From NCBI GenBank assembly GCA_034231615.1, contig CM067312.1:317501-381500 (forward strand): a stretch of 64,000 nt of DNA. The letters are read 5' to 3'. Positions 1 through 64,000 of this stretch are shown piece by piece (positions within the stretch are counted from its first letter, which is position 1; each line of letters begins with the position of its first letter). This stretch comes from Meghimatium bilineatum (Eukaryota; Mollusca; Gastropoda; Stylommatophora; Philomycidae). The position numbers and the translations under genes were made by a program. The notes beneath the pieces are model-generated. The model was not told where the DNA came from and ran no database searches. It saw only the letters and a program-made list of their open reading frames with translations.

Positions 1-91
1 CAGAAGCCAAATAGTGAGAAAGGCTTTGGTTTCTTCTTATCAGGTGGAGCTGACAAGGACAGAAGTTTATATGTTAGCAAAGTCTTATTAG
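1..91 (+). CDS. Exon A (window-truncated at 5'): first half of a PDZ domain
   Basis: Thirty codons plus one base, read from base 1, with the window edge possibly cutting the exon. It contains the PDZ carboxylate-binding loop as GFGF at codons 8-11, followed by a strand ending in YVSKVLL. The donor is TTAG|GTGAGT at 91/92 (phase 1). The last 34 bases of this exon, with the donor, are the founder of the tandem array that fills the start of the intron. Splicing to 15360 restores the conserved Gly-Ser step between PDZ strands B and C, which supports the pairing of exons that lie 15 kb apart. Confidence 0.75.
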   Translation, partial: RSQIVRKALVSSYQVELTRTEVYMLAKSY

Positions 92-388
92 GTGAGTAAA
101 TCAATTTTAGGATAGAAGTTTATATGTTAGCAAAGTCTTATTAGGTAAATCAATTTTAGGACAGAAGTTTATATGTTAGCAAAGTCTTATTAGGTAAATC
201 AATTTTAGGATAGAAGTTTATATGTTAGCAAAGTCTTATTAGGTAAATCAATTTTAGGACAGAAGTTTATATGTTAGCAAAGTCTTATTAGGTAAATCAA
301 TTTTAGGATAGAAGTTTGTATGTTAGCAAAGTCTTATTAGGTGAATAAATCAATTTTAGGACAGAAGTTTGTATGTTAGCAAAGTCTT
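92..388. repeat. Exon-derived minisatellite at the start of intron 1, unit 49 bp (first 53 bp)
   Basis: Each unit repeats the final 34 bases of exon A (from GACAGAAG to TTATTAG) followed by a short spacer GT(GAGT)AAATCAATTTTAG. About six further copies follow the true exon, alternating GACAGAAG and GATAGAAG. Every copy here keeps a donor-like TTAG|GTAAAT or TTAG|GTGAAT and an acceptor-like AATTTTAG just before the exon copy. The array resumes at 2193 after a LINE insertion. Confidence 0.9.
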
Positions 389-2192
389 GATGTTCGTCTG
401 TCATAATCAACGATGACCAAAACGCCACACACAAAAAAAAATAATAATAAAAGATAAGAAAGTTAATAGTGTGTTTTTAAAAAGTTCTTCCACATAATTG
501 ACATCTGTAGAGGGTGTCTGTGGGATGTTAAGATTTTTTGTCTTTTCTACTTGCCGGCTTCTGTCTTGCAGTTTCTTGCCTGATCTCTTCCGCCGCTAGT
601 GCTCCAGTTCTGAGACTGTAGTGCCATACTGATCTATCCTCAGCGAGACTCTCCCAAGAGCCTACATCAATTTCAAGATGTTTCAGTGAGGACTTGAGTG
701 TGTCTTTGAAACATTTTTTCTGTCCATAGCTTTTTGAAGTCCTGTCTTGAGTACTCCATAATATATTTGTTTTGGTAGACGCGAGTACTCCATTGTACAA
801 GAGGACCTGCTCAGCTTGCTTGTGCTGTCATAAGTAATGTGTAGATGCTTGTTGAGGCTGATATTTCCAAGACCTCGTAGTCTGGTACTTTGTCCCACCA
901 ATGGATGTTTAGTAATTTATGTAGGCAGCAAAGATGGAAGTGATTTAGTTTTCTTGCATGCCTGTCACACTGTCCACGTTTCTCAAGCATATAGTAGGGT
1001 TGATACAACAACCACTTGATCTACATGAATTTTGGTAGTTGTTTTTATACCTCTTCGGTCCCATACATTACTGTGTAATCTGTGTAATCATTCATCATAT
1101 TTTGATGTTTTGTTTGTGTCTTGATAAAGAGCTTTTGGTTGAAACGTTGAATGTGATTTGTGTATTGTAATTTTTATGATTTCTTGTGTGCTCATCATTG
1201 CCCATCATTACCCACTAGTTTTAGATATAGTTATGTCGTGTCCCATTGAAATGAAATATAAGCCTGTGTTTTACCTAAGTCTAATTGTGTAATCTACCTA
1301 ATACAGCACTAGCTTTTACCAGTCTATTGTTAATTTCCACATCGATGTTCACATCCAGAGAGAGAGAGAGTGCTTCCAAAGTATGTAAAAGTGTCAACTG
1401 CCTGATTTTTGTTCCTGACAGTTTTTACTGATTGAAGATAATAGAAGTAGCAGTATGTTGGCTATTTGGTGTTAAATGGTGCATGATGTCTGTTTTTTTG
1501 GTGTTAATAGTAAGACCATAGTTGCTGCAGGTCTGTGAGAAATGGTCTATGGCACTTTGCATGTTTATGACAGAGTCAGCATACAATGAACAGTCATCAG
1601 CGTAAACTATTTCCCTAATAGTGTCGGATTTAGTTTTAATTTTTGCTTCTAAATGATGTAGATTGAAAAGACCACCATCTGTTCTATAATTGATAATTAT
1701 ACCAGTTGTTTCGTTACTACAGTATGCATCCATTAGCATGGCTGTAAATAACAAGCTAAATAGAGTAGGGGCCAGCACACATCCCTACTTTACACCATTT
1801 GTGACAGGGAACTCAGGAAATACCCCTCCGTCGCATACAACACTAACCATCATACCGTCATGAAATTCTCGTATCACAGGGACAAGTTTTGGGGGGCACT
1901 CAAACTTTGTAAGCACCTTCCACAGAACTTCTCTGTTAGCAGTATTGAATGCATTGGTTAAATCTACAAATTTTGTTAAGAGTTCACTATGTTGCTCTTG
2001 AAATCTTTCCTTAATTTGTCGTGCAGCGAATATCATATCAACTGTACTGCGACCTACATGAAAACCGCACTGACTCTTTAATAGTGAGTGATTTAATCTA
2101 TTGAGTATAACACGAGCAAAAATTAAACCAGCTATAGACATAAGTGATATACCACTGTGATTATTGCAAGACTGTTTGGTAACTTTGCCTTT
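389..2192 (-). mobile_element. Non-LTR retrotransposon, finger-type family A, 5'-truncated
   Basis: Reverse strand, 3' end near 389. RT fragments lie at 1785-2141 (palm start, SMSIAGLIFARVILNRL at its head) and 1425-1778 (palm, catalytic box present as YADD within IVYADDCSLYAD). The C-terminal domain is at 528-1011, with the KCFKDTLKSSLKHL signature of this family. A stop separates the two palm ORFs at about 1780, and the frame is broken by the insert at 1020-1285. Element sequence stops abruptly at 2192, where the minisatellite resumes. A short AGTCTT occurs at both edges, too short to call a firm target duplication inside a repeat. Same family as 29009-30259. Confidence 0.75.
1020..1285 (+). 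mobile_element. Penelope-like 3'-terminal fragment inside the family A LINE
   Basis: About 265 bases interrupt the LINE between its thumb (ending near 1286) and its C-terminal domain (resuming near 1018). The inserted stretch has the same tail layout as the Penelope-like copies at 10.2, 12.1 and 63.2 kb: a TTGATAAAG segment, a short potential hairpin and then TTGAAACGTT. Ends are approximate and no clear target duplication was found. Confidence 0.45.
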
Positions 2193-2745
2193 ATATTAGT
2201 CTTATTAGGTGATTGATTCACTTATAGGCCAGAAGTTTGTATGTTAGTAAAGTCTTATTAGGTGATTGATTCACTTATAGGACAGAAGTTTGTATGTTAG
2301 CAAAGTCTTATTAGTTGAGTGAATCACATATAAGACAGAAGTTTGTATGTTAGCAGTCTTATTAGGTTAATAGCTTGTAGGACAAAAGTTTGTGTGTTAG
2401 CAAAGTCTTATTAGATGAGTGATTCACTTATAGGACAGAAGTTTGTATATTAGCAAAGTCTTATTAGGTGAACAAATCACTTATAAGACAGAAGTTTGTA
2501 TATTAGCAAAGTCTTATTAGGTGGGCGAATCACTTATAGGACAGAAGTTTGTGTGTTAGCAAAGTCTTATTATATGAGTGATTCACTTATAGGACAGAAG
2601 TTTGTATGTTAGCAAAGTCTTATTAGCTGTGTGAATCACTTATAAGACAGAAGTTTGTACGTTAGCAGTCTTAATAGGTGAATCACTTATAGGACAGAAG
2701 TTTGTATGGTGGCAAAGTCTTACTAGATGAGTGAATCACTTATAT
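2193..2745. repeat. Distal part of the exon-A-derived minisatellite
   Basis: About eleven further copies of the exon-A tail, with GTTTGTATGTTAGC replacing the exon's GTTTATATGTTAGC and spacer GTGAGTGAATCACTTATAG. Roughly half of these copies have lost the donor GT (for example TTAGATGAG, TTATATGAG, TTAGCTGTG), unlike the copies nearest the exon. Confidence 0.88.
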
Positions 2746-3213: not shown

Positions 3214-4008
3214 TTCTTCTTTTGTTCACTTGAAACATGTCTATATCTGTAATTCTGTCTCCTTAATAAAACTCACTGTCTTTTGTAGTTCATACAGTGT
3301 CCCATAGAGCTTTGATTCCAGTGTTGTTTCCTCTGGCCAATATGTCTGCCTCAGTGTTTCATGCTCAGAACACTCTTGAAGTATATGTTTGGCACTCTGT
3401 GCTGCCTGTCCACATGTACACATGGCCGTGTTGACAATCTTGAACTTTGTATACATGTGACTGCGGAGTTGGTTGTGTCCTGTTCTGAGACGTAGAATTA
3501 TAACTTGTTCTGATCTATTCATAATGTGATAGTCATCTTGTGTTGGTGTTTGTGGCTTTCTTATTGACTTGATCATCTGTTTTTTCTGATGGTAGGTGAT
3601 TGGTATATCTGGTTGGTCTTCAGCAGCACATTCCTTAGCCAGTTGGTCTGCTTTTTCATTTCCTGGTATTCCACAGTGAGAGGGTATCCACTGCATGGTT
3701 ACCCTATACTGGTACGACAATTCACTAAGTAGTTTTTTCAAGTCTGTTAGTTTTCCAGACTGGAGAGCTTGAAGCACTGACCTTGCATCTGTCAGGAATA
3801 CCACAGGCTGTAGGCCAGAGTTGGAGTTCAGCAGTTTTTTAGCTGCCACACTAATTGCCTGGATTTCTGCATCATAATTATTGCAGAATTTTCCTATCGA
3901 TGTTCTGATTGTATCTCTAGGCTTGTGTGGATATTCTATATATACACCTGCACCTCCATTCCTCACAGCATTCTGTGCTGACCCATCTGTGTATACTCTG
4001 ACCCATAT
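3214..4008 (-). mobile_element. RNase H-bearing LINE, 5'-truncated, with 11-bp target duplication
   Basis: The reverse strand encodes an RNase H domain in good condition: VYTDGSAQN, DAEIQAISVA, LTDARSVLQAL and PSHCGIPGNEKADQLA supply the usual acidic residues. It is followed by the Cys/His tail CTCGQAAQSAKHILQEC seen at the end of I-group LINE ORF2. The 3' end lies at the left with an AAG-type tail. TCTTATGTAAC is present at 3203-3213 and 4009-4019, so the insertion is 795 bp. The open frame reads 3241-4074, but its first ~22 codons (4009-4074) are flanking minisatellite, not element. Confidence 0.85.
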
Positions 4009-4045
4009 TCTTATGTAACATTTTGGTTCATGTAATTCAATACCT

Positions 4046-4565
4046 GCCAACCAGTTGAGATTAAATTTCTGCACAGGAACTTAACAAATAAAACCATACA
4101 GAATCAAGAAAAAGGTTACACTCTCACAAGGGGAGAGGGTTTATTATATTTTTTTAAAAAGTCTTAGAATGGAAATATCGGTGGGGGTGGCGGGTGTGTG
4201 CGGGTGTGTTTTTGACAACCTCTGTCTAAATCATTTAATACAATTAATAGTAAGCTACTCAAATACATGTTCTGCTTTGTTAAAGGGGAGTGGGGGTGTT
4301 GGTTGACGTCCCTCTCCTATTTGCAGAATTGTCGGGACATGCCATTGGGCGTAGACAGACAGTTTATTATTTTAACACAAAAACATTTTTACATTTTTGT
4401 CAGGTACTTCCATCTTGTCTTTGGAAGATTTATGGCTTTTTTTATCACCCCTTGTTTGTCGCTCAGGGTAAATGTCATGATTTACATTGGAACCCCCTCA
4501 CCATTTACAAAAACTTGGAGTTTGTTTTTGCTGTCTTGTATTCTATGTAATCTACTTGGTTTTTG
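4046..4565. other. Spacer, no gene recognised
   Basis: Open frames on the forward strand here (4267-4705) are pyrimidine-rich and match nothing I recognise. They lie opposite the tail of the endonuclease fragment that follows and are probably chance frames. Confidence 0.4.
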
Positions 4566-6890: not shown

Positions 6891-6892
6891 AT

Positions 6893-10051: not shown

Positions 10052-11578
10052 ATAATACTCATGTGGAAGACAGGTAATGAAGTCCTACTGGATGACGACT
10101 AACACACTATCACTAGCGGATGTTTACATGAATAAATATGGTACATACAACAAAACAAAACACAGAATATAATCATACAAATGACAATACACAGGACAAA
10201 GTCGACGTTTCGGACCAATAGGCCTTTTTCAAGATACACACATAACATACACACATAAAAATACCACAAGTATAAATGATGCGTGTCCGAGTGAAATATG
10301 GTAGTGAAATATGATGCCGGAAGGATACGACCAGGAAGTACACAAAGACGATAATACAGGTAGAACGAGAGGAACAAAACGATGACGTAAATGGCGGCAC
10401 AAAATGAATAAAAACAACAAAGACCAATCCGACCAAGAACTAAGTGAAAGAGTGGTCGGAATTGAGTCCAAATGGCTTTATGGTACCCAACTCGAAAATG
10501 AGACAATTTTCTAGTACGTACCTAGATCTATCATCGGTGGTGCAGGATCTGATGGCAGTGACTTGAATGTCAAGGGCACCACGGTGGCTGTTGCCGTTGA
10601 AGTGATTGGCCACAGGAGTGGGTGTTCTGTGTTTGATAGCATGCAGGTGGTTACAGAAGCGGTCGTTCAGTCTAAGGCCAGTCTCACCAATATATTGCTT
10701 ACCACAGCGTTTACATATGATCACGTAAATAACATTACGGGATTCACATGTAAAGGCCTCATTGATGGAGAAACTGACCTTGGGAAATGAGATGGAGCGC
10801 ATCTGAACCACATAAGGACATTTGTAGCAATGATAGCATGTGCAACAAACAGTACCAAAATGGTCAGGTGCAGAGGACCTGAGGTGGCTGTGGACCAAGA
10901 TGTCCTTCAGATTTTTGTCGCGCCTATAGGCCACCAGAGGTAAGTTGTAGAAAGCGCCATGGGTGTCAGAATCAGACTGGAGAAGGGAATAATGTTTGAG
11001 CAGAATGCGATGGACAGTCGAGTTATGGGGATGGAAGGTAAGAACCAGTTTAACCCTATTAGAGGAGGAGGAAGAACCCTGGGAATAATTATTCAAGGTA
11101 TCAAGGTGAGATAGCTGGCTTACACGGAGCCAAGCCAATGAAAGAATGCTGTCAGGGAAGGAGCGTCTATGGAAGAACTCAATCATCTCAGAGGATTTGT
11201 TGAGAAAATCGTCATCATCGCTACATAAGCGACGAAGGCAAAGAAGCTGTGAGTAAGGTAGAGAGATGCGACAGGTGAGAGGATGAGAAGAAGTGTAGAG
11301 CAGAAAGCCATGTGCATCAGTAGGTTTGTAGTAGACTGATGTGCTGAGGTAAGGGGGATAAATAGTGACAATGATGTCCAGGAAATGGACAGAGGTGGTG
11401 GAAATGGTAAATGTGAATTTAATAGCGGGGTTGAAATTGTTGATGAAGTTGATGAAGCGAGACAGTTCTGCTTCTGTCATGTCAGTAATACCTATCCCAT
11501 CATCAATGTATCTGTGGAAAAGAGATGGGAATGGGCCATCGTAGGTAGACCAAACTAGATGTTCAAGATGTCCCATGA
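10052..11578 (-). mobile_element. Penelope-like element: RT C-terminal half, Cys linker and GIY-YIG endonuclease
   Basis: One open reverse-strand frame (10440-11576, 378 codons) contains FHRYIDDGIGI (RT motif C with YIDD, residues about 21-31), FLDI (about 68), YYKPTDAHGFLLYTSSHP (about 83-100), a Cys-rich linker with CCTCYHCYKC (about 243-252), and a GIY-YIG nuclease with VIYVIICKRCGKQYIGETG, followed by RLNDRF and H. RT motifs upstream of YIDD are missing (5' truncation at 11578). Downstream is a 3' untranslated region with a small hairpin just before GAAACGTCGAC (10205-10240). It forms the left half of a head-to-head pair. Confidence 0.88.
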
Positions 11579-12237
11579 AAACGCTGTGGTAAGCAATATA
11601 TTGGTGAGACTAGCCTTAGACTGAGCGACCGCTTCTGTAACCATCTGCATGCTATCAAACACAGAACACCCACTCCTGTGGCCAATCACTTCAACGGCAA
11701 TGGCCACCGTGGTGCCCTTGACATTCAAGTCACTGCCAATAGATCCTGCACCACCGATGATAGATTTAGGTACGCCCTAGAAAATTGTCTCATTTTCGAG
11801 TTGGGTACCATCTAGCCATTTGGACTCAAATCCGACCACTCTTTCGCTTAGTTCTCGGTCGGATTGGTCTTTGTTGTTTTTATTCATTTTGTGCCGCCAT
11901 TTACGTCATCGTTTTGTTCCTCTCGTTCTACCTGTATTATCGTCTTTGTGTACTTCCTGGTCGTATCCTTCCGGCATCATATTTCACTACCATATTTCAC
12001 TCGGACATGCATTCATTTCTACTTGTGGTATTTTTATGTGTGTATATTATGTGTTTATCTTGAAAAAGGCCTATTGGTCGGAAACGTCGACTTTGTCCTG
12101 TGTATTGTCATTTGTATATATATATATTCTGTGTTTTGTTTTGTTGTATGTACCATATTTATTCATGTAAACATCCGTCAGTGATAGTGTGTTAGTCGTC
12201 ATCTAGTAGAACTTCATTACCTGTCTTCCACGTGAGT
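11579..12237 (+). mobile_element. Inverted second Penelope copy, 3'-terminal ~660 bp
   Basis: It reads from within the GIY-YIG region (YIGETSLRLSDRFCNHL) to the same 3' terminus as the minus-strand copy, ending in CATTACCTGTCTTCC. The two copies differ at few positions over about 650 bp, and their truncated 5' ends meet at 11578/11579 where both share AAACG. TTCTATTGTT lies at both outer flanks, but this is also part of the surrounding repeat unit, so it is only weak evidence for a target duplication. Confidence 0.88.
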
Positions 12238-12894: not shown

Positions 12895-14971
12895 AGCTGC
12901 CTTGTATATTTTACATTCAGTCATCACACAGTGCTTGTATATCTTACATTCAGTCATAACACAGTGGTTGTATATCTTACATTCAGTCATAACACAGTGG
13001 TTGTATATCTTACATTCAGTCATAACACAGTGGTTGTATATCTTACATTCAGTCATCACACAGTGCTTGTATATCTTACATTCAGTCATAACACAGTGGT
13101 TGTATATCTTACATTCAGTCATAACACAGTGGTTGTATATCTTACATTCAGTCATAACACAGTGGTTGTATATCTTACATTCAGTCATAACACAGTGGTT
13201 GTATATCTTACATTCAGTCATAACACAGTGGTTGTATATCTTACATTCAGTCATAACACCGTGATCATATATCTTACATTCAGTTATCACACAGTGATCA
13301 TATATCTTACATTCAGTTATCACACCCCCATCGAGGCCAGAACCTTGAAGTGGTGATGGGGCTTAGTTCAGCCATCAGAGGCTGGAAACTAAGACTGGTT
13401 GGGCACTCCCACTCGAGCAGGACCATAGTCCGGCCCAAGTAAGCAGAGTGCTGAAGACGGAGGCAACCAGCCAAAAGGCGCACAGATAATCAGGTTGCCA
13501 TGCATAAAACACAAATATTGGCCAGAGGAAACAACACTGGAATCAAACTTCTATGGGACACTGTATGAACTACAAAAGACAGTGAGTTTTATTAAGGAGA
13601 CAGAATTGCAGATATAGACATGTTTCAAGTGAATGAAAGAAGAAGAAGAAGTTATCACACAGTACACAGTGGTTGTATATCTTACATTCAGTCATAACGC
13701 AGTGAGTCATAATGCAGTGGTTGTATATCTTAATTTCAGTCAGAACACAGTGGTTGTATATCTTACATCATCACACATCGCTTGTATATCTTACATTCAG
13801 TCATTACACATTTGTCGTATATCCTACATTCAGTCATCACACAGTGGTTGTATATCTTACATTCAATCATCACAAGTGGTTGTATATCTTATATTCAGTC
13901 ATTACACAGTGGTTGTATATCTTATATCTTCACACTGTATATCTTACATCATCACACAGGGTTATATTATTTTATTTAGTCATTGCACAGTAGTTGTATA
14001 TTTTATATCATCACACAGTATGTGCTTATATTGCATCATCACACAGTGATTGTATATCTTACATCATCACACAGTGATTGTATATCTTACATCATCACAC
14101 AGTGATTGTATATCTTACATCATCACACAGTGATTGTATATCTTACAACATCACACAGTGATTGTATATCTTACATCATCACACAGAAGTTGTATATCTT
14201 ACAACATCACACAGTGATTGTATATCTTACATCATCACACAGTGATTGTATATCTTACAACATCACACAGTGATTGTATATCTTACATCATCACACAGAA
14301 GTTGTATATCTTACAACATCACACAGAAGTTGTATATCTTACATCATCACACAGAAGTTGTATATCTTACATCATCACACAGAAGTTGTATATCTTACAA
14401 CATCACACAGTGAGTGTATATCTTACATCATCACACAGAAGTTGTATATCTTACATCATCACACAGTGATTGTATATCTTACATCATCACACAGAAGTTG
14501 TATATCTTACATCATCACACAGTGATTGTATATCTTACATCATCACACAGTGATTGTATATCTTACAACATCACACAGTGATTGTATATCTTACAACATC
14601 ACACAGTGATTGTATATCTTACAACATCACACAGTGATTGTATATCTTACATCATCACACAGTGATTGTATATCTTACATCATCACACAGAAGTTGTATA
14701 TCTTGCATTCAGTTACTACTCAGTGATTGCATATCTTACATTCAGTCATCACACAGTAATTGTATATCTTACATTCAGTCATCACACTGTGACTGTATAT
14801 TGTATATTAAGTAATCACGTATTGGTTGTATATCTTACATCATCACGCAGTGGTTGTATGTCATACATTCAGTCCACATGTACTTTTGTATATCTTACTT
14901 TCAGTCTACATGTACTGTTATATATCATACATTAAGCCAACTGTACTGTGATATATCATAGATGCAGTCTA
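12895..14971. repeat. 33-bp minisatellite whose unit contains an acceptor-like site
   Basis: A unit with TTGTATATCTTACATTCAG and TCATAACACAGTGG (33 bp) is perfect for many copies at 12931-13260. A shorter derivative with TTACATCATCACACAG fills 14040-14700. It is interrupted at 13326-13649. Because 33 is a multiple of three, long open frames occur on both strands; these are artefacts. TATATCTTACATTCAG|T resembles the true acceptor of the next exon (TATATCCTACAATTAG|G at 15359). Confidence 0.9.
13326..13649 (+). mobile_element. LINE deletion derivative (leader joined to ORF2 end) with 11-bp target duplication
   Basis: 324 bp flanked by AGTTATCACAC (13315-13325 and 13650-13660). The first ~180 bp resemble the LINE leader at 42.6-43.2 kb. 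The rest is the end of the RNase H-LINE ORF2 (ending TVSFIKETELQI, as at 3241) plus the AAG-type tail. Everything between is missing, as in a non-autonomous element that keeps the 5' leader and the 3' end. Confidence 0.8.
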
Positions 14972-15359: not shown

Positions 15360-15521
15360 GCAGTGCTGCTGATGTATGTGACCTCAGATTTCAAGATATA
15401 GTACTTTCAGTGAACCAGACCGATGTGTCTGCCATGTCTGCTACTCAAGTTGGTGAAATTATTACTCAAGCAGTTTGTGCAGGTTATTTAGAAATTCAAG
15501 TCTGGCGGCAATGTGGAGAAG
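15360..15521 (+). CDS. Exon B: second half of the PDZ domain
   Basis: Phase 1 in, phase 1 out. It completes a Gly codon and continues SAADVCDLRFQDIVLSVNQ, the PDZ beta C to beta D region (small residue, Asp-Ile-Val-Leu, Asn), then an alpha-2 helix (ATQVGEIITQAV) and the last strand YLEIQVWR. The pattern Gly-Ser-x-Ala ... Asp-x-Ile ... Asn ... Gly-x-Leu ... Val-x-Arg is close to LMO7-type PDZ domains as I recall them. The donor is GAAG|GTAAAC at 15521/15522. Confidence 0.8.
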
Positions 15522-15528: not shown

Positions 15529-15835
15529 CATCTGTGTGTGTATGTGAATATATATTGTGTGAATGTGAGTCTTTATCTATGTACCTGTATGGATGTGAAT
15601 CTCTCTGTGTACATGTGTGTATGTGAATCTGTCTGTGTGCATGTGTGTCTGGTCTGTGTGCAAATCTCTCTGTGTATATGTGTGTCTGTGTATGTGAATC
15701 TCTCTGTGTGTCTGTTAATCTATCTGTGTACATGTTTGTGTGTATATGAATCTCTATCTGTGTACATGTGTGTCTGAATCTCTCTCTGTGTACATGTATG
15801 TATGTGAATCTCTATGTACATGTGTGTCTGGGTTA
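15529..15835. repeat. TGTG-rich minisatellite starting seven bases after a splice donor
   Basis: Irregular copies of GTGTATGTGAATCTCTCTG with a TGTACATG segment, starting at donor position +8. No exon bases are included. Confidence 0.8.
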
Positions 15836-18679: not shown

Positions 18680-18771
18680 AAGATTTTGATGATCTGACCT
18701 CCAGCAGTGATGAGGAAGTGAACACTGTCAGCTCATCAAGAGATCAAAAATATCTGATACAGGAAGTCAAG
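18680..18771 (+). CDS. Exon C: acidic/serine linker after the PDZ
   Basis: Acceptor TTTTTAG|AA, phase 1 in, phase 0 out. Thirty-one residues rich in Asp, Glu and Ser (EDFDDLTSSSDEEVN at its start), ending in IQEVK. It looks like a disordered linker, possibly phosphorylated given the Ser-Ser-Ser-Asp-Glu-Glu stretch (CK2-type context; inference). Donor CAAG|GTTAGC. Confidence 0.7.
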
Positions 18772-18817
18772 GTTAGCAGGAACATGTCTGTTCAATTCAC
18801 ACAAAATTAGGAACTGT

Positions 18818-19040
18818 CATAAAATATCAAATTGACATATGCTATATAGTTTTTTCATAAAATAACAAAATGACATCTGCTATATAGTTTTTTTCACATA
18901 AAAACTTGGTTTTATTCTCTACCACCTATAACTCTTTATCTCTGACAAGCCACTAAAACAGCAGATCCCTTCTGCTGGCAAGCCACCAAAACAGCAAGTT
19001 GAGCAGATCCCCTCTGATGGCAAGCTACTAAAACCACTTT
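18818..19040. repeat. Two low-copy direct repeats near the exon C donor
   Basis: Two copies of a ~40-bp unit (CATAAAATATCAAATTGACA and the TGCTATATAGTTTTTT segment), followed by three copies of a CAGCAGATCCCTTCTG-type unit. Confidence 0.65.
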
Positions 19041-19892: not shown

Positions 19893-21685
19893 CATCATCA
19901 TCAAGTGCCGTCTCCGCAATGAAGGTTGGCTGCAACGTATCTCCAACATCTCCTGTCTCTTGTCTTGGTGGTGCACTCTGCTAGACTGTAACCTGTCCAT
20001 CGTGTAATGTTACTCTCCCACTTGTATCTCTGCCTACCTCTTGCTCGCTTCCCTTTGACTTTACCCTCAAGTAAGGTCTTCAATAGAGTGTCATGTCTTT
20101 TAATGTGTCCAAAGTATTTTATTTGCCTGATCTTTATTTCTTTTAGTAGTTCTTTCTTCATATTAAGTGTCTTTAGCACCTCTTTATTTGTTTTCTTCTC
20201 TTTCCATGATGTTCTCCCTATTCTTCTATATACCCACATCTCAAAGGCATCAATTTTGTCTTCTAATTGTTTAGTGTCCATGTTTCTGAGCCATACATTA
20301 ATATGGAATAGATGTAGCATTTTATAATTCTCATTTTTAAAGTGTTTGTAATTTCATTTGTGACTATGTGTCCAAGATATTGATACTGTTTTACTTGTTG
20401 TAGTTTCTCTCCCTGTATGTTTATGTTTATCTCCTGTTCTTCTGTGTCTTTTCTGATTATCATGGTTTTTGTTTTTTGAATGTTTATATCCAGTCCATAT
20501 TCATTACTTGATTTATTGACTTGATCTATTAGTCTTTGTAGTTCATGTTCACTTTCTGCTAAAAGAACAGTGTCATCTGCATATCTAATGTTGTTTATTA
20601 TTTTCCCATTGATCTTGAGTCCTGGTGTTTCTTCTATATTTTTAAAGATATTCTCTGTGTAGATATTAAATAGGCTTGGTGATAAAATGCATCCTTGTCT
20701 TACCCCTCTTCTTATTTCTATGTATGGAGAGTAGCTGTTTTCACACCTTATTGATGCAGTTTGTTCCCAATATATATTTCTAATCAGCCTGATGTCTTTT
20801 CCATCTATGCCTATTTCTTGAAGACATTTGATTAATTTTTCATGTTGGACTCTGTCAAAGGCCTTGCTGTAGTCTATGAAGCAAATATAGATACTTTTTT
20901 GGACTTCTATTTATTTATCCATCACTAGCCGGATACTCAGTATAGCATCTCTAGTTCCTTTGTTTTTCCTAAAACCGAATTGTTCTTCACCGACCTCCAT
21001 GTCTATCTTGTTCTTAATTCTTTCATGTATTATCGTGAGAAGTATTTTAGTTAGATGGCTCATTAGACTTATTGTTCTATATTCTGTACAGTCCACAGCC
21101 CTGGGCTTCTTAGGTAGTGGTATGAATATTGATGATGTTAGGTCTTTAGGTATATGGCCCGTTTCGTATATGTCATTGCAAATTTCTGTGATAGTATCTA
21201 CACCAAATTCATTTAGAGTTTTTATTATGTCTGCTGTTATGTTGTCAGAGCCTGCAGCTTTTCCACATTTTATTGAATTTATTTTATGTTCTACTTCTGA
21301 TTTCAGTATTGCTGGTCCATCATTGTTGTGTATTGTTGGTTTTTTGTTCCGTTGGTCGTCAAACAGTTCTGTTACATAATCTGCCCATCTTGTGAGTGCT
21401 TCTGTTTTATCAAATATTATTTTACCATTTTTATCTTTAATGCAGCCACCCCCATTTATAGGATTTTTCTTATTTGTGATCAGCCTTATCTCCTTATGCA
21501 TTAATTTTGTCTTCTGTTGTATGGACATCTCCTCTATTTCACTGCATTTTGTTTCTAGCCATTTTTTTCGCTGTTCTGCACATGTTACGTATCTCCTTGT
21601 CTATACTTGAGTATTTTGGCGTATTTTTAGCTTTCTTTCTTTCTGTCGTTTTCTCTAATATTTCATCTGTCATCCATATTTGTTT
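19893..21685 (-). mobile_element. RTE/BovB-like LINE inserted in a finger-type LINE, 10-bp target duplication
   Basis: Reverse strand, in two or three frames: endonuclease-RT linker and RT fingers at 20911-21528 (KCGKAAGSDNITADIIKTL, GEEQFGFRKNKGTRDAI), the RT palm with RYADDTVLLAESEHELQRL near 20550-20600, and the C-terminus at 19901-20320 (RARGRQRYKWESNITRW). A CATCATCATC tail lies at 19893. GTTGAGCTGT occurs at 19883-19892 and 21686-21695, and the finger-type LINE sequence is continuous across the empty site. Stops and frame changes show it is dead, but YADD is intact. Confidence 0.85.
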
Positions 21686-26012: not shown

Positions 26013-27480
26013 TGATGATGATCTTCCTCCTTCGCAGTTGAAGATGAGCATGGCATGAAAAACAATAAGGTGATGAACAAGTAGAAAAACAACAAAACAT
26101 TTGTGATTGTCTAATTTGGTTTGTGAGTTCCTAGATGCCTGATGAGTCCGATTCATGCCAGGAAAGTTCTATTGCAGTGCATGCAGGAGTTTAGAGGGTT
26201 TGGAGTAGGAGAGTTTTCAGATTTGTCCTTCCACATTGGTGGAATGTGTAAATTCCACTTGTAAATTGCCAGCAGTGGTCTTTCTTTTTTTAAATTTAGT
26301 GATGCCAGCAGTGATCTGGGTGTGTCAAGCTAAGCGATCAAGCTCTGTAGTCTCCCAGGAGCTAGGATCACTGCTGCAGTGCTTGAGAGAGTTTTTTAGG
26401 TGATCCTTGAAGTGCTTTTTCTGCCCGCCACTTGAACGTTTACCTTCGCACAGCTCCCCATAGAATAATCTCTTTGGAAGACTCTTGTCTGGCATACGGA
26501 CGATGTGGCCAGTCTAGCGGAGTTGCGACCTAATGAACAGGACATTGATGCTTTGCATATGGGACTTTTGAAGGATTTCCTTGTCTGGTACACGATCCTG
26601 CCAACATACTCCCATGAGGTTTCTTAGGCACCAAAGATGAACAGAGTTCAGCTGTCGAGCGTGTTTCGCATAGACAGTCCAGGATAACGCAGCATAATGC
26701 AGTGTTGGTAGAACCACTCCGCGGTACACATCCAACTTATTTGTCAAACTGAGACCATGCCTGATCCGGACGTTGGCATGAAGACTCTCAAATGCTGCAC
26801 TGATGCGTGCAATGCGCAGGGCAACATCCTTGTCAATTATAGCAGTTTGCGATAGGGTGCTGCAGAGATGTACAAACCTATTGGCAGTATTTAGTTTTTG
26901 TCCCTTTATTGTGATCACTGGATCTGTGTAGGTGACACTTGATGCTGGTTTATACATTACTAATGTCTTCGCTGTGCTGATGGTGAAACCGAATGCATCA
27001 CAGGCCAATGAAAAGATGTCCATGCTGTCTTGCATGTCTTTCAGACTGGTAGCGTGTAGGACACAATAGTTGACGAACAAGAGGTCACGAACAATGTCCA
27101 TCTTAGTTTTGGTCTTGACCCTCAATCTACTAAGATTAAAGAGCCCTCCAAGAGCTTGATAGTGAAAGCAAATTGCTGCACTGTTATTCCTGAAGGCATC
27201 ATTTAACATGGCAGAGAAGACCATGCTGAAAAGAGTTGGAACCAGGAAGCATTTTTGTTTGACACCGTTAGTTACTGGAAACAGGTTTGAGTGTGCACCG
27301 TCATCTTGCACACAGGCTGTCATACCATCATGGAACTGTTGAACTGTATTGGTGAATTTTTCACATCAAAATTTGGCTATGATCTTCCATAGTCCTTCAT
27401 GATTTACAGTGTCGAATGCCTTAGTTAGGTTGACAAATGTGGTGTAGAGACCAATGTTCTGTTCGCAACACTTTTTCTGT
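26013..27480 (-). mobile_element. Finger-type LINE family C, 5'-truncated
   Basis: Reverse strand. An RT palm and thumb frame covers 26514-27323: the PVTNGVKQ box, LFSMVFSAMLNDAF, then VRDLLFVNYCVLHAT, where the expected FADDC is FVNYC, so both catalytic aspartates are lost. It continues through thumb and connector (HYAALSWTVYAKHARQLNSV, CWQDRVPDKEIL) into the C-terminal domain at 26150-26500. A GATGATGATGAT tail lies at 26013-26025. Same family as 19150-19882. Confidence 0.8.
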
Positions 27481-27639: not shown

Positions 27640-27700
27640 GTACATGATGCTGCTGAAGATGCTAGATCCACAGATGACAGCCAATGGATGACTCATGCAG
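27640..27700 (+). CDS. Exon D: 20-codon linker exon
   Basis: Acceptor TTTGTTCAG|GTA, phase 0 in, phase 1 out, donor GCAG|GTGTGT. It encodes VHDAAEDARSTDDSQWMTHA, acidic with one Trp. It is short and not family-diagnostic; support comes from exact phase match with exons C and E and from proper splice sites. Confidence 0.6.
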
Positions 27701-36666: not shown

Positions 36667-36764
36667 ATTTACCAATAACACGAGAGTCATTCATCAATAT
36701 GCCAACTGATGGTGTAGACAGTCATGTGCTGGGATTTGACATTCATGTGGCACATGAAAAGCAG
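36667..36764 (+). CDS. Exon F: 33-residue segment
   Basis: Acceptor TTTCTTTCAG|AT, phase 1 in, phase 0 out, donor GCAG|GTAATG. It encodes DLPITRESFINMPTD followed by a Val/His-rich half (VLGFDIHVAHEKQ). No domain assigned. Phase and clean splice sites support it, and it continues into the Arg/Glu-rich exon G. Confidence 0.68.
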
Positions 36765-37542
36765 GTAATGAGAGTAATACAAATATATGGCATAGTGGCA
36801 GAATAGATATATTGCATTAATTAGAGAGTATATAAATATGGTATAGTGATAGAATAGATATGTTATGTATTAATTAGAGAGTAGATATATAGTATAATGA
36901 TAGAATAGATATGATATGTCAATGTGCTAATTAGAGAGTAGATATGACATAGTGACATAATAGATATGATATGTATTAATTAGAGAGTAGATATATAGTA
37001 TAATGATAGAATAGAAATGATATGTCAATGTGCTAATTAGAGAGTAGATATGACATAGTGACATAATAGATATGATATGTATTAATTAGAGAGTAGATAT
37101 ATGGTATAGTGACAGAATAAACATGTATTAATTAGAGAGTAGATATATGGTATAGTGACAGAATAAACATGTATTAATTAGAGAGTAGATATATGGTATA
37201 GTGACAGAATATATATGTATTAATTAGAGAGTAGATATATGGTATAGTGACAGAATATATATGTATTAATTAGAGAGTAGATATATGGTATAGTGACAGA
37301 ATATATATGTATTAATTAGAGAGTAGATATATGGTATAGTGACATAATGGATATAATTTAATTAGAGACTTATGGTTATAGTGACAGAATAGATTTGATA
37401 TGTGTTAATGAGAGAGTAGATATATGGTATAGTGACAGCATAGATATGATTTCATTATAGAGTAGGTATATGGTATAGTAAAAGAATAGATATAATTTAA
37501 TTAGAGAGTAAATATATGGTATAGTGACAGAATTGATGTGAT
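36765..37542. repeat. ~52-bp minisatellite that starts with the splice donor of exon F
   Basis: Intron 6 opens GTAATGAGAGTAATAC...ATATGGCATAGTG, and the array unit is TTAATTAGAGAGTAGATATA with TGGTATAGTGACAGAATA, so the first unit contains the donor. About 15 copies lie here, continuing at 38276-38402 beyond the piggyBac-like element. Confidence 0.85.
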
Positions 37543-49642: not shown

Positions 49643-49917
49643 GATGAAGAGATAGTCAAAGACAAGACAAGACAGTTAGAGGAGCGTCGCGCTGAAAGAA
49701 GGGCAAGAATTCTACAGTCAACATCTATGAAGTCATTACTACCTACTCATGATTTGATACCAAAGGCAGTACAGCAAGAATGTGCTACAGCCTTGTCAAC
49801 ACCTACTACTACCATCAGTAGCAGCTTCAACATTACCAATAACAGATATCAGCCAGTTACAGTCGCAGCTTTTCAAGAAACACGCTTTCTCATTGATCCC
49901 AGAAACAAAGTATCCAG
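49643..49917 (+). CDS. Exon G: Arg/Glu-rich then Ser/Thr-rich segment
   Basis: Acceptor TTGTATGCAG|GAT, phase 0 in, phase 2 out, donor CCAG|GTGAGC. Ninety-one complete codons: a charged helix (KDKTRQLEERRAERRARIL, heptad-like), SMKSLLPTHDLIP, then Ser/Thr-rich low complexity and VTVAAFQETRFLIDPRNKVS. It is the longest internal exon in the window. Its last ~23 bases plus the donor found the next array. Confidence 0.78.
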
Positions 49918-51330
49918 GTGAGCTTGTGTGTCTTGTATGTCCCAGGAACAAAGTATCCACCAGATGAGCTTGTGTGTCTTGTATGTCCCAGGAACAAAGT
50001 ATCCACTAGATGAGCTTTTGTGTCTTGTATGTCCCAGGAACACTGTATCCACTAGATGAGCATGTGTGTCTTATATGTCCCAGGAACAAAGTATCCACTA
50101 GATGAGCTTGTGTGTCTTATATGTCCCAGGAACAAAGTATCCACTAGATGAGCTTGTGTGTCTTATATGTCCCAGGAACAAAGTATCCACCAGATGAGTT
50201 TGTGTGTCTTGTATGTCCCAGGAACAAAGTAACCAGGTGGGCTTGTGTATCTTGTATGTCTCAGGAACAAAGTATCCAGGTGAGCTTGTTTGTTTTGTAT
50301 GTCCCAGGAACAAAGTATCCACTAGATGAGCTTGTGTGTCTTGTATGTCCCAGGAACAAAGTATCCAGGTGAGCTTGTTTGTTTTGTATGACCCAGGAAC
50401 AAAGTATCCAGGTGAGCTTGTTTGTTTTGTATGTCCCAGGAACAAAGTATCCAGGTGAGCTTGTGTTGTATGTCCCAGGAACAAAGTATCCAGGTGAGCT
50501 TGTGTATCTTGTATGTCCCAGGAACAAATTATCCAGATGAGCGTTTGTGTCTTGTATGACCCAGGAACAAAGTATCCACCAGATGAGCTTGTGTGTCTTG
50601 TATGTCCCAGGAACAAAGTATCCAGGTGAGCTTGTGTGTCATGTATATCCCAGGAACAAAGTATCCAGGTGAGCTTGTTTGTTTGTATGTCCCAGGAACA
50701 CAGTTTCCCAAGATGAGCTTTTGAGTCTTGTATGTCCCAAGAACAAAGTATCCAGGTGAGCTTGTGTGTCTTGTATGTCCCAGGAACAAAGTATCCACTA
50801 GATGAGCTTGTGTGTCTTGTATGTCCCAGGAACAATGTATCCACTAAATGAGCTTGCGTGTCTTGTATGTCTCAGGAACAAAGTATCCACTAGATGAGCT
50901 TGTGTGTATTGTATTGTCCCAGGAACAAAGTATCCAGGTGAGCTTGTTTGTTTTGTATGTCCCAGGAACAAAGTATCCACCAGATGAGCGTTTGTGTCTT
51001 GTATGTCCCAGGAATAAATGATCTAGATGAGCTTATGTGTCTTGTATATACCAGGAATAAATTATCCAGGTGAGCTTGTGTGTCTTGTATATACCAGGAA
51101 TAAATTATCCAGATGAGCTTGTGTGTCTTGTATATACCAGGAATAAATTATCCAGGTGAGCTTGTGTGTCTTGTATATACCAGGAATAAATTATCCAGGT
51201 GAGCTTGTGTGTCTTGTATATACCAGGAATAAATTATCCAGGTGAGCTTGTGTGTCTTGTATATACCAGGAATAAATTATCCAGGTGAGCTTGTATGTCC
51301 CAGGATTAAAGTATCCAGGTGAGCGTGTGT
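49918..51330. repeat. Exon-derived minisatellite at the start of intron 7, ~43-49-bp units
   Basis: Units repeat the end of exon G (CCCAGGAACAAAGTATCCAG) and its donor with the first intron bases (GTGAGCTTGTGTGTCTTGTA), about 30 copies. Two kinds are intermingled: those with an intact CCAG|GTGAGC, and those reading CCACYAGATGAGC, where a small insertion has removed the donor. The distal third (from 51010) has CCAGGAATAAATTATCCAG and keeps the donor. A 248-codon reverse frame at 50098-50844 is an artefact of unit length. Confidence 0.93.
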
Positions 51331-51759
51331 GTCTTGGCAAAAATGATATACACATGATATACACATAAAACTGCACATGAAATAGTATGTGTCTTGTCAT
51401 GTCCTAGCCAAAAATGCTGTGAAGCATTGTGGGAAGCCTAAATTGTCTTTCTAATGCCAAATGTGTTGCATTTGTTATTGTAATACCATGTTGTTATTGT
51501 AATACCATGTTGTTATAGTAATACCATGTTGTTATAGTATGTCTCTGATGTTATCAACCCATCTCTCCCTGTAGATCTTCCTCTTGCTCTCTACCCAGAT
51601 ACTCTTCTAATGAAATATGTATCAGTTTTTATATTTTGTGTCCTTTGATTTTTAACAATTTCATATGTTATGTTTATGAAAGGACATATTTTTCTATTTT
51701 TATCTGTGACCTATGCTTGTTTGTGTGTGCATGCTTGCCTGCTTGCTTGCTTGTGTGCA
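51331..51759. other. Intron 7 spacer
   Basis: Contains four copies of GTTGTTATAGTAATACCAT (51475-51540) and otherwise ordinary T-rich intron. Confidence 0.5.
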
Positions 51760-53642: not shown

Positions 53643-53695
53643 TGAGATGTCAACTGCAGAGTTTCCAGTCAGAAATAATGACCAGACAAGTAACA
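53643..53695 (+). CDS. Exon H: 18-codon microexon
   Basis: Acceptor TTGTTTCAG|T, donor AACA|GTAAGT. Phase 2 in and phase 1 out is exactly what is needed to link exon G (phase 2 out) with exon I (phase 1 in), which do not fit each other directly. It encodes SEMSTAEFPVRNNDQTSN, polar and probably disordered. The acceptor lies only 21 bases after the target duplication of the twin-primed LINE, so that insertion replaced most of the sequence just upstream of this splice site. Confidence 0.72.
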
Positions 53696-55739: not shown

Positions 55740-57425
55740 GATTCCAGACATGAGACTATACAGTAGAAATAGTAGTTAATGTTGTCTATTTCCACTATCT
55801 AATATGTTCATCCATGTTGTCTATTTCCACTACCAAAAATGTTCATCCATGTTGTCTATTTCCACTACCAAAAATGTTCATCCATGTTGTCTATTTCCAC
55901 TATCTAATATGTTCATCCATATAGTCTATTTCCACTATCTAATATGTTCATCCATATAGTCTATTTCCACTATCTAATATGTTCATCCATGTTGTCTATT
56001 TCCATTACCTAAAATATTCATCCATGTAGTATATTCCCACTACCTAAAATATTCATCCATGTAGTATATTCCCACTACCTAAAATATTCATCCATGTAGT
56101 ATATTTCAACTTCCTAAAATATTCATCCATGTAGTATATTCCCACTATCTAATATGTTCATCCATATAATCTATTTCCACTATCTAATATGTTCATCCAT
56201 ATAGTCTATTTCCACTATCTAAAATATTCATCCATGTAGTATATTCCCACTACCTAAAATATTCATCCATGTAGTATATTTCAACTACCTAAAATATTCA
56301 TCCATGTAGTATATTTCAACTTCCTAAAATATTCATCCATGTAGTATATTCCCACTATCTAATATGTTCATAAATGTAGTATATTCCCACTACCTAAAAT
56401 ATTCATCCATGTAGTATATTCCCACTACCTAAAATATTCATCCATGTAGTATATTCCCACTACCTAAAATATTCATCCATGTAGTATATTTCAACTACCT
56501 AAAATATTCATCCATGTAGTATATTCCCACTATCTAATATGTTCATAAATGTAGTATATTCCCACTACCTAAAATATTCATCCATGTAGTATATTCCCAC
56601 TACCTAAAATATTCATCCATGTAGTATATTCCCACTACCTAAAATATTCATCCATGTAGTATATTTCAACTTCCTAAAATATTCATCCATGTAGTATATT
56701 CCCACTATCTAATATGTTCATAAATGTAGTATATTCCCACTACCTAAAATATTCATCCATGTAGTATATTCCCACTACCTAAAATATTCATCCATGTAGT
56801 ATATTCCCACTACCTAAAATATTCATCCATGTAGTATATTTCAACTTCCTAAAATATTCATCCATGTAGTATATTCCCACTACCTAAAATATTCATCCAT
56901 GTAGTATATTCCCACTACCTAAAATATTCATCCATGTAGTATATTTCAACTACCTAAAATATTCATCCATGTAGTATATTTCAACTACCTAAAATATTCA
57001 TCCATGTAGTATATTTCAACTACCTAAAATATTCATCCATGTAGTATATTTCAACTACCTAAAATATTCATCCATGTAGTATATTTCAACTTCCTAAAAT
57101 ATTCATCCATATAGTCTATTTCCACTACCTAAAATGTTCATCCATGTTGTCTATTTCCATTACCTAAAATGTTCATAAATGTAGTATATTTCCACTACCT
57201 AAAATGTTCATCCATGTTGTCTATTTCCATTACCTAAAATATTCATCCATGTAGTATATTCCCACTACCTAAAATATTCATCCATGTAGTATATTTCAAC
57301 TTCCTAAAATATTCATCCATGTAGTATATTTCAACTTCCTAAAATATTCATCCATGTAGTATATTTCAACTTCCTAAAATATTCATCCATGTAGTATATT
57401 TCAACTTCCTAAAATGTTCATCCAT
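55740..57425. repeat. 35-bp minisatellite, about 47 copies, with a 175-bp higher-order repeat
   Basis: Unit with CCCACTACCTAAAATATTCA and TCCATGTAGTATATT. The marker variant CCCACTATCTAATATG with TTCATAAATG occurs at 56351, 56526 and 56701, exactly 175 bp (five units) apart, each followed by three standard units and one TCAACT variant. An earlier marker-like unit at 56141 is six units before 56351. Confidence 0.95.
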
Positions 57426-57435
57426 GTATTTTACA

Positions 57436-58095: not shown

Positions 58096-58262
58096 GCTTG
58101 GAACTTGCTAGTTTAATTGAAGAAGAGAGAAATCGTATCCGATTAGAAGAATTCAACAAGCTCAAAGAGGAAAGAAAGAAGATAGAGGAGGAATTAATGA
58201 ATAGAGAAAAAGAAGATAAGTTGAGGTACCAAAGAGAAGAGGAAAAGCTTAAAAAAGAACGG
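58096..58262 (+). CDS. Exon I: charged coiled-coil segment
   Basis: Acceptor TCCTGTTTAG|GC, phase 1 in, phase 0 out, donor ACGG|GTATAC. After one completed codon it encodes 55 residues, more than half Glu, Lys or Arg, with no Pro or Gly and Leu/Ile at heptad-like spacing (IEEERNRIRLEEFNKLKEER at its core). A long single alpha helix or coiled coil is expected. It continues into exon J without a break. Comparable Glu/Lys/Arg helices follow the PDZ in LMO7-type proteins. Confidence 0.82.
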
Positions 58263-58680
58263 GTATACAATATTTGTATGTACAGTAGAATAGTTTATAC
58301 AATATTTGTATGTACAGTAGAATAGTTTATACGATATTTGTATGTACAGTATAATAGTTTATACAATATTTGTATTACAGTAGAATAGTTTATATGATAT
58401 TTGTATTACAGTAGAATAGTTTATATGATATTTGTATTACAGTAGAATAGTTTTTACGATATTTGTATTACAGTAGAATAGTTTATACGATATTTGTATT
58501 ACAGTAGAATAGTTTATACGATATTTGTATGTACAGTAGAATAGTTTATACGATATTTGTATGTACAGTAGAATAGTTTTTACGGTATGTGTATGGACAG
58601 TAGAATAATTTATATGGTATTTGTATGTACAATAGAATAGTGTATATGATATTTATATGTACCATAGAATAGTTTATAAA
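58263..58680. repeat. 32-bp minisatellite that starts at the splice donor of exon I
   Basis: Intron 9 opens GTATACAATATTTGTATGTA, and the array unit is TTTATACGATATTTGTATGT with ACAGTAGAATAG, so the first unit begins at the donor. About 13 copies; some lack GT in TTGTATGTACAG, giving 30-bp units. Confidence 0.9.
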
Positions 58681-61379: not shown

Positions 61380-63240
61380 GGCAGAAACAATGGGTCTTCC
61401 CGGCTGAAAGGCTTGTGGATTTTTGGCAGCATATAGAATGCAGGCCTACCCACTGCTTACCTTGAGGCAAAGAGCGGCAGCTGAAGTGGGCAAGAGATCA
61501 ATTCCTGGATAAGTGTCTTCCAACCATTAGTGGAGCAACTCCCTACATTCCTGAAAGATACTAACCATGCCCTGTTCATCTTTGCCTCTATTTAACTGTC
61601 CCCTGCTCACACCTATCATCTCTATCTGCTGGGTGTCTGCTCTCTTTACACCTCCATACTGCACTCAGAGGGTCTCGAGGCCATGAAGTTCTTCCTCGAC
61701 CAGTACCCTCATCCCTCTGAGTCTACCTCTACCCTCAACCGCCTTGCCGAAATCGTGCTCACTCTCAATTCCTTCAAGTTTGATGGTCACTCCTTTGACA
61801 AAATCAGTGGGGTTGCCATGGGCACAAAGATGGTGCCTAGCTATGCCTTCTTTAATGGGCCATCTTAAACACCAGGTATGGGAATCCCATGGAGGGCCCT
61901 TCCCATCGATATTCCATAGGTATATCAATGATGGGATCGGCATCATTGACATGTCTGAGGCTGAACTGGCATGCTTCATACAATTCATTGACAATTTTTA
62001 CCTGGTCATCAAGTTCACATCAGAGAGCTCCGCCTCCCATGTGAACTCCCTGGACATATCCATCAATATCTAACCCTTCTGTCTCAGCACATGGGTACAC
62101 TACCAACTGACTGATGCCAATATCTTTCTTTTATACACCTCTTCTCATCCTTCTGCCTGTCAGGATTCCCTTCCATTCTCTCAACTTCTTTGTCTCTGGC
62201 GCTTGTGTAGTTGCGAGGGCAACTTCCTAGAGAAATCCTAAGTGATGACAGATTTCTTCTGCTGTTGCCTATACTCTGAGAGAGTTCTCAGAACCGCCCT
62301 TCCTCAAGTGTGCAGTCTTTCCTGTCAGGATACCCTCTTGAACACTCAGAAGTCTTCCTGTTCTGACATTGTCAAGCTTGTTCTTACTTTTCACACCCAT
62401 AGCTCTGCCGTTCGTCATGTCCTGCTTCGTCACCTTCCTCTTCTCCAGTCTGATCCTGAGACGTGGGAAGTGTTCTGTGAACCCCCTCTTGTTGCTTACA
62501 GATCTGACAAGAACCTCAGGGATTTACTTGTCTGGAATTACCTGCAGCCGGAAGTTTCTAATCATTTTGGCATCATGAGCTGCATATGCTACACCTGAGA
62601 TTATGTCACCTAGACCCTGTCTGCCACATTCCCCAAAGCCACCTTCACCATTGAGTAGAGCTTCACATGTGTGTCCTCCAATGTCATCTATGCCATCATA
62701 GACGCATAGAGGCATTGTGCCATGGCATATATGGGTGAAACTGGAAGAGGCTCGCAGACAGATTCTGTGAACATCTGTATAGCATCAAAAACAATTTGGG
62801 TTATCCTGTTGATGTCCACTTCAATTTCATGGGCCATCAGAGGCGCCCAGGACATTCAGGTTATGGTCTTTAAGTCATGCTTTTCTGATGACCGGACCCG
62901 ACTTGCGCTTGAGAACCACTATATCTAACAATGGGGCACTCTCAAACACCTGTCTCATGTATGATTCTAAGTGTTCCATAGTTTCTGTTTGTTTCGTGTC
63001 AAATGTATGTAGTCATTTTATTTATATTCCTTGTCTGATGTCGTTTCTCCTCTTCCAGTAAATTTATATTGCACATGCCAATGTGAAGGTCCATATCTTT
63101 ACTGTCCATTTACTGTTGCATATATTTAATTTTGTTGTAGTTTTTCTTGATGAAAGCCTTTTTGTCGAAACGTCAATTTGTGTGTGTTATTATGTATGTC
63201 TTCAGTGATTAGCAAAACTTCATTACCATATTCCTGGATT
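61380..63240 (+). mobile_element. Penelope-like element, longer but decayed copy (RT and GIY-YIG)
   Basis: Forward strand in several frames: RT with SGVAMGTKMVPSYAF (fingers/palm), FHRYINDGIGIIDMSEAEL (motif C is YIND rather than YIDD, so one catalytic Asp is lost), LLYTSSHP (thumb), a linker, then a broken GIY-YIG (NVIYAII, then AYMGETGRGSQTDS). The 3' end has CTTGATGAAAGCC and GTCGAAACGTC at 63147-63175. It reaches further upstream than the 10.4-kb copy but is older. Confidence 0.8.
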
Positions 63241-63512
63241 TACCTCTTCAACTTTAGATGTTACTCCCATTGATCCTTTGCATTTCATGTACAAATTGTT
63301 TATTGTCCAGTTTTGAGGCAGTGTTCTGCTCTGTGGCAGTGTCCAGCTCAGTGGCAGATAGCTACATAGTGCACCTCATGTGCAAATGAAACTAATGCTG
63401 GTGATAAGAGGCATGGCAGATTTATTTATTTCATGGCTTAGTTATTTATATATATTTGGCTTGGACTGAATTTCTTGGCTATTAATTTGTCTTTTTTTCA
63501 ATTTTGTATTAG

Positions 63513-64000
63513 GAACTTCTTCAACTTGAAAAGGAGATTTTTATTCAGGAGAAAGAAGAATTCAACAGATTTAAAGAACAGCAACTTCTGCAGCAGTTTC
63601 AACAAGATAAAATAACACTAAAACAACCACACAGTCAAGTTGCTCAAACAAGAGCATATGATTCTCCAGCTCAACAAGTTCACATGAAAAACTCTAGATC
63701 AGATGAAAACAGTCTTCAATCAATCACTTACTCAAGCAGCAACCACACACAGCATGATCCAAGCCAGACTACTGACTCAAACAGCAGCCACACACAACAT
63801 GTATCTGTAGAACCAACTAAGAAAAACAGCTTCCAACCCATTTCAGTACAAGATTCTACTAAAGCAAAGGAAGAGCACAGTCACAAGACAGATACCATTT
63901 CTAAGACATTTCTCGAACAACCCCATGACAGACCTAGAACTTCTTCATCCAATTTTCCTAGTAGACAACCGATTGCCAGTAATGATCAAATAGTCACACA
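63513..64000 (+). CDS. Exon J (window-truncated): coiled-coil end and Gln/Ser/Thr-rich tail
   Basis: Acceptor TTTTGTATTAG|GAA, phase 0 in, open for 162 codons to the window end. It starts as a direct helical continuation of exon I (ELLQLEKEIFIQEKEEFNRF, KEQQLLQQFQQDK), then changes to disordered, Gln/Ser/His/Thr-rich sequence with a loosely repeated SSNHTQH / SSHTQHV motif around codons 75-95. Both halves fit an actin or junction scaffold. A LIM domain, if present, would lie to the right. Confidence 0.8.

Follow-up and report, generated by a model that had tools for sequence, protein, structure and literature searches.

Tandem arrays beside the exons of a PDZ-domain gene in Meghimatium bilineatum: probable mirage- or stuttering-type minisatellites, with targeting of splice junctions not supported

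We analysed the intronic tandem arrays of a gene on a 64,000-nt stretch of the Meghimatium bilineatum genome (C15:317501-381500, contig CM067312.1; hereafter the window), in which most introns carry such an array at or near their 5′ splice site. The genome comprises 1.61 Gb in 32 contigs; the chromosome in question measures 55 Mb, and the GC content of the window is ~37%. Ten plus-strand exons, spliced together, yield one open frame in the window, whose product contains a PDZ domain (Pfam E = 7.6e-10) and long charged stretches. The PDZ piece matches mainly disks-large and MAGI PDZ chains. Beyond the window, a later exon near 71735 (window numbering) encodes a LIM-type motif with general LIM matches (5 sequences). 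This combination of PDZ and LIM is reminiscent of LMO7/LIMCH1; of 7,995 scored candidates, none was homologous to the stitched protein at E ≤ 0.001. The exons in the window are as follows.

1 to 91, plus strand: exon a, first half of the PDZ domain, placed by open frame and PDZ match; donor at 92
15360 to 15521, plus strand: exon b, second half of the PDZ domain; acceptor at 15359
18680 to 18771, plus strand: exon c
27640 to 27700, plus strand: exon d
30825 to 31016, plus strand: exon e
36667 to 36764, plus strand: exon f
49643 to 49917, plus strand: exon g
53643 to 53695, plus strand: exon h; donor at 53696, without an array
58096 to 58262, plus strand: exon i
63513 to 64000, plus strand: exon j, running on beyond the window to ~64869

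The putative 5′ end of exon a lies ~30 bases upstream of the window start, and the best donor candidate of exon j is at 64870. Introns in the window total 62.3 kb, of which 32% is covered by arrays called with Tandem Repeats Finder (TRF; score at least 50, period at least 10); coverage is 20% in 50 kb of flank and 9-13% in the interiors of myosin introns sampled elsewhere in the genome. The arrays, and an element inserted into one of them, are listed here.

56 to 388, plus strand: intron 1 array, first block, a 49-bp unit in 6.6 copies with the last 36 bases of exon a and the donor
389 to 2197, no strand assigned: inserted element splitting the intron 1 array, with an RVT_1 fragment on the minus strand and AGTCTT on both flanks
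2198 to 2744, plus strand: intron 1 array, continuation, a 53-bp unit in 10.5 copies that have diverged further than the first block
13745 to 14969, plus strand: array ahead of exon b, whose units contain acceptor-like TTACATTCAG, with degenerate copies continuing toward the acceptor at 15359
15556 to 15827, plus strand: intron 2 array, TG-rich and irregular, beginning at +34 (TRF)
18817 to 18893, plus strand: intron 3 repeat of 38 bp, two copies only, from +45
27761 to 28618, plus strand: intron 4 array, 62/120-bp unit, from +60
30996 to 31354, plus strand: intron 5 array, 54-bp unit with the end of exon e and the donor
36783 to 37537, plus strand: intron 6 array, beginning at +18 (TRF) or +16 (ungapped)
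49897 to 51333, plus strand: intron 7 array, a 43-bp unit in 31.8 copies with the last 21 bases of exon g and the donor
55779 to 57428 (1,650 bp), plus strand: intron 8 array, a 35-bp unit in 47 copies, not at a splice site
58264 to 58678, plus strand: intron 9 array, beginning at base +1

An initial annotation of the window had proposed that these introns grow from their own splice junctions by tandem duplication, and had described arrays containing the exon end plus donor in introns 1, 5 and 7. We placed duplicated segments relative to each donor by ungapped comparison and took array starts from TRF. Units in all three introns do hold the exon end and donor, with the duplicated segment running from -36 to +47 in intron 1, from -12 to +59 in intron 5 (TRF start -21) and from -21 to +59 in intron 7. 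The exon part, continuous across the donor, thus amounts to 36, 12-21 (ungapped/gapped) and 21 bases, respectively. The other placements in that description were likewise confirmed, namely arrays at or shortly after the donor in introns 2, 6 and 9 and some 45-60 bp inside introns 3 and 4, although the ungapped start of +7 in intron 2 is a weak match in TG-rich low-complexity sequence. Intron 8 has no array at its donor, as had been described. This sole window intron without a donor array carries its 47-copy array of 35-bp units 2.1 kb inside.

Many of these copies retain a donor dinucleotide: GT is intact in 6/6 readable copies in intron 5, in 16/32 in intron 7 and in 6/11 in the second block of intron 1, while the alignment of the first block leaves one copy readable at the donor. 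Intact copies of this kind, especially those of introns 5 and 7, might indicate that the arrays are functional, for example as decoy donors regulating donor choice or splicing kinetics. We consider this highly improbable, however, given the loss of GT from half of the intron 7 copies and from 5/11 in the second block of intron 1, and given units that differ between introns.

The arrays appear to be of local origin. They adjoin their source exon, their copies are tandem and have diverged from each other, and a DNA search of the genome with one of them, the intron-5 array (very common words skipped), matched only itself. This part of the original proposal, that introns have been lengthened by local tandem duplication, sometimes including the exon end and donor, is upheld. 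The AGTCTT flanks of the element at 389 to 2197 look like a 6-bp target-site duplication, and because this 1.8-kb element sits inside the intron 1 array, the array is older than the insertion. Together, the diverged copies and the interrupting element indicate that the arrays are real, that they are not recent assembly stutter and that not all of them are recent. An assembly or sequencing artefact, in which copy numbers beside exons are inflated by reads that collapsed or stuttered, had been allowed for in the initial annotation, and the copy numbers do depend on the assembly alone. Private and shared differences among copies, the apparent target-site duplication of the element that interrupts one array, and the recurrence of the pattern on other chromosomes (see below) nevertheless leave such an artefact scarcely credible.

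Further retroelement-like fragments lie in these introns on the minus strand, at 3241-4080 (RNase H), 20911-21600 (a reverse transcriptase match just under the family cut-off) and 26514-27365 (recognized by eye, with no Pfam match). At 10440-11609, also on the minus strand, a 389-aa open frame matches GIY-YIG weakly, at a level under the family cut-off. We take this frame to be suggestive of a Penelope-like element.

Is the arrangement in this gene more regular than chance would produce? An array starts within [-40,+70) at 8 of the 9 window donors, compared with a circular-shift mean of 0.77 (20,000 shifts, p printed as 0.0000), this range having been derived from the window gene and not set in advance. 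Within [-40,+20), array starts are found at 5/9 donors versus a mean of 0.43 (p = 0.0004). These figures call for some caution in view of the 32% repeat coverage of the introns and of the many arbitrary window positions that, like some donors, are spanned by a duplication (see below). Intron 10, which lies outside the window, has no TRF array of score at least 100 within 700 bp of donor 64870, so that the tally becomes 8/10 donors. As a measure of duplication at donors, the plain score of any duplication at most 60 bases away was rejected, because a score of 40 is attained at 35% of 300 randomly chosen positions in the window.

Acceptors in the window behave differently from donors. No array ends in (-20,+40] at any of 9 acceptors, and ends in (-70,+40] occur at 2/9 versus 0.79 expected (p = 0.19, circular shift). 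The array before exon b had been thought to merge into the real acceptor, a description that we could bear out only weakly. Bases -29 to +2 of this acceptor recur 423 bp upstream (score 44), part of them recur 81 bp upstream (score 34), and degenerate copies between these two points can be seen by eye; the TRF array, however, stops ~390 bp short of the acceptor.

For comparison beyond the window, we assembled splice sites (101 donors, 63 acceptors) of exons from myosin and kinesin genes, which had been found by a Pfam search of the genome. The myosin head gave 67 matches, of which 63 were fetched and used. Kinesin gave 123 matches; ~60 were shortlisted in roughly score order (no stops, ending before the domain end, one per near-identical pair), the first 40 were fetched and 38 were used, with locus L104 dropped for having no exon end and L094 dropped as unresolved. 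Splice sites were set by a weight matrix of typical metazoan values, and each placement was compared by eye with the translation. The donors of L101, L090, L086 and L095 were shifted by eye, and that of L025, which is uncertain, was placed two ways.

Array starts in [-40,+70) were found at 20/101 sampled donors (13/63 myosin and 7/38 kinesin), versus 5.6 expected under uniform placement. The uniform rate, 0.50 array starts per kb, was taken from +100 to +1450 downstream in myosin introns. A shorter reference interval, +100 to +400, holds 20 starts in 30.3 kb and would give an expectation of ~7.3; it was set aside for this purpose because the kinesin loci reach no further than about +430. With the nearer reference of +100 to +400, the excess depends on the TRF score threshold. 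For [-40,+100), the ratio is 2.4 (p = 0.005) at score 50, 2.3 (p = 0.01) at score 80 and 1.9 (p = 0.06) at score 120; the corresponding values for [-40,+20) are 2.3 (p = 0.04), 2.1 (p = 0.09) and 2.2 (p = 0.08). Donors elsewhere in the genome are therefore enriched for array starts relative to uniform placement, but at the strictest score the excess is ~2-fold and short of significance at 0.05. Sampled acceptors, by comparison, have an array end in (-70,+40] at 5/63 sites versus 4.0 expected, with a ratio of 1.0 in (-100,+40].

These counts bear on the simplest account, in which minisatellites are placed at random with no relation to exons and a repeat-rich gene was noticed by chance. The high repeat content of the window introns, the absence of an excess over uniform placement at acceptors, a rate of junction-spanning duplication that is not raised (see below) and the marginal donor excess at score 120 are all consistent with it. 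Without any edge effect, however, 0.77 window donors and 5.6 sampled donors would be expected to have an array, versus 8 and 20 seen, and we consider purely random placement very unlikely.

The same counts could instead reflect a donor-side process, in which co-transcriptional R-loops, U1-marked nascent RNA or replication-transcription conflicts lead to breaks, repair of these breaks founds duplications at 5′ splice sites and introns grow from their donors. The excess of sampled donors over the uniform expectation (Poisson p ~2e-6; 1e-3 at the window's own density), the near-uniform count at sampled acceptors and the contrast in the window between donors and acceptors would be in keeping with such a process. 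On the other hand, 15 of the 20 donor-proximal arrays start at +7 to +68 (TRF) and so hold no exon sequence, the donor excess is not significant at the highest array score, and the gap between donors and acceptors is modest and based on 63 acceptors.

A process aimed at the exon-intron edge, as had been suggested from the window, can be assessed by asking how often a duplicated segment spans the junction itself. At a score of at least 40, this is the case for 4/101 donors and 2/63 acceptors, versus 42/476 downstream and 52/476 upstream positions in intron interiors (myosin loci only, some of which overlap, so that positions are not all independent). Targeting of exon-intron edges is thus not supported, as junctions are duplicated less often than the intron interior. 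Junctions are not hit more often than the interior, and the arrays abut exons.

The four sampled donors with strong donor-spanning duplications are those of L027, L067 and L068 (myosin) and L080 (kinesin); six of the 101 qualify at a score of at least 30. L080 is the clearest case, with a 47-bp unit in 8 copies comprising 46 exon-end bases followed by GTAAG; its TRF start of -46 falls outside [-40,+70), and it is not counted among the 20. Junction-spanning units elsewhere measure 43, 47, 85 and 87 bp, and the cases are spread over C1, C15, C16, C21 and C23. Around position 1668 of L027, the array at the myosin donor mixes units with ~20 and 38 exon bases, as if two duplications were nested. 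At L020, an array of 24-bp units (2258-2320) lies ~518 bp upstream of a myosin exon, within the preceding intron. Its units copy the coding sequence found at the end of this same exon (AIDLIEK), and it may be what is left of a duplicated exon.

How many arrays would be expected at exon edges if they form uniformly and exons merely stop them? We considered a barrier model with uniform array formation, in which any array that would reach into an exon is trimmed to the exon edge. This model, a two-number approximation (start rate multiplied by mean array length), predicts 14.9 donor-edge starts for the 101 donors, compared with the 20 seen (Poisson p = 0.12 for at least 20). With the donor count fitted in this way, and with junctions duplicated less often than the interior, we consider the donor-side process unlikely. 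The fuller claim, that introns of this lineage grow preferentially from 5′ splice sites by donor-side, probably transcription-coupled tandem duplication, such that ~1/5 of donors are directly followed by an array and acceptors are spared, we hold to be quite unlikely.

Several observations nonetheless weigh against an explanation by exon barriers alone. First, the window gene is denser at its donors than the model predicts: at its own repeat density (~0.4 per donor), P is 0.004 for at least 8/9 donors and 0.012 for 8/10 with intron 10 included, values uncorrected for the gene having been chosen by its pattern. Second, the model predicts 12.1-13.6 array ends at acceptors, whereas 5/63 are found in (-70,+40] (p = 0.02) and 8/63 in (-110,+40] (p = 0.08). 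Part of this shortfall may stem from selection acting on the pyrimidine tract and the branch region. Third, donors exceed acceptors in a direct comparison (20/101 versus 5/63, one-sided Fisher p = 0.03). Finally, a duplication (score at least 40, within 360 bp) spans 4/9 window donors versus 25% of 209 evenly spaced window positions. The model is also an approximation with two numbers, and the data come from one assembly.

The initial annotation knew of no standard name for the pattern, but such arrays have been named twice. In amphioxus, 'mirages' are minisatellites that span exon-intron boundaries in Adh3, globin, PGBD5 and other genes; they occur at 5′ or 3′ ends, have units of 10-72 bp in Adh3 and ~150-160 in globins, keep AG/GT in many copies, are spliced normally as suggested by RT-PCR, and have been proposed to play a role in intron gain (PMC3087553, PMC3902484). 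Allelic or somatic length instability is a further trait of mirages. The arrays described here resemble mirages in having boundary-spanning tandem units in introns 1, 5 and 7 and at the few sampled donors and acceptors counted above, in their unit lengths (43, 49, 53 and 54 bp in the window, with the similar range given for other loci) and in the donor GT found in many units. The exon-proximal donors of the window gene yield one open frame. Our survey differs in its setting, an AT-rich genome of 1.61 Gb, and in tallying such arrays over donors and acceptors of other genes.

A second comparison is offered by a phenomenon of avian dot chromosomes termed 'sequence stuttering' or 'exon stuttering', which was described as new in 2026 (PMC12954441). 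This is a local tandem expansion in introns, a subset of which copies the exon edge with its donor or acceptor; the exon part is 20-187 bases (median 36), and the source lies at most 1 base from the exon border in >90% of cases (PMC12954441). Avian stuttering is further described there as clustering on the GC-rich dot microchromosomes and as being linked with length polymorphism (PMC12954441). The likeness lies in an exon part of comparable length that continues across the donor and in the local origin of the arrays, the intron-5 array having matched only itself. The GC-rich dot setting is not shared, as the window has a GC content of ~37% on a 55-Mb chromosome, with cases on several chromosomes. 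Introns have also reportedly been gained or changed by tandem genomic duplication of AGGT-containing sequence. There, as here, the tandem duplication includes a splice signal, but in that process a new intron is made, whereas existing introns are lengthened in this gene. The Rogers model of intron gain by tandem duplication is cited in this sense in the amphioxus work (PMC3087553). We therefore file the arrays under an already named kind, that of mirages or stuttering, found here in an AT-rich genome, and do not propose a new mechanism. Among the titles listed in searches of the open-licence literature, none announces a donor-versus-acceptor test of such arrays.

Taken together, the units are tandem and adjoin their source, and the real exon end and donor are spanned in a few percent of introns. 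We think it reasonably probable that the arrays are minisatellites of local origin, of the type known as mirages or stuttering, and that they arise without any process aimed at junctions. Tandem duplications would arise roughly uniformly along introns and would later be expanded and homogenized through slippage during replication or unequal exchange. Where a duplication includes the donor, it would be tolerated, as the exon-proximal copy preserves the frame together with the authentic donor and the other copies become intron; provided that the first donor is used, downstream copies would be harmless and the intron would lengthen. An array overrunning the exon would, by contrast, be expected to break the protein, so that the exon-side end of an array would settle at or just inside the donor. 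With the exon acting as a barrier in this manner, an apparent regularity can emerge without a process directed at junctions. Introns would be lengthened by such arrays together with retroelement insertions.

These findings suggest that high rates of tandem duplication may generally give rise to minisatellites at exon edges, AT-rich genomes included. They also offer a simple null model, in which arrays form uniformly and are halted at exons; proposals of splice-site targeting should be judged against it, with the donor and acceptor sides tallied separately. Finally, they link amphioxus mirages and avian stuttering, two literatures that have run under different names.

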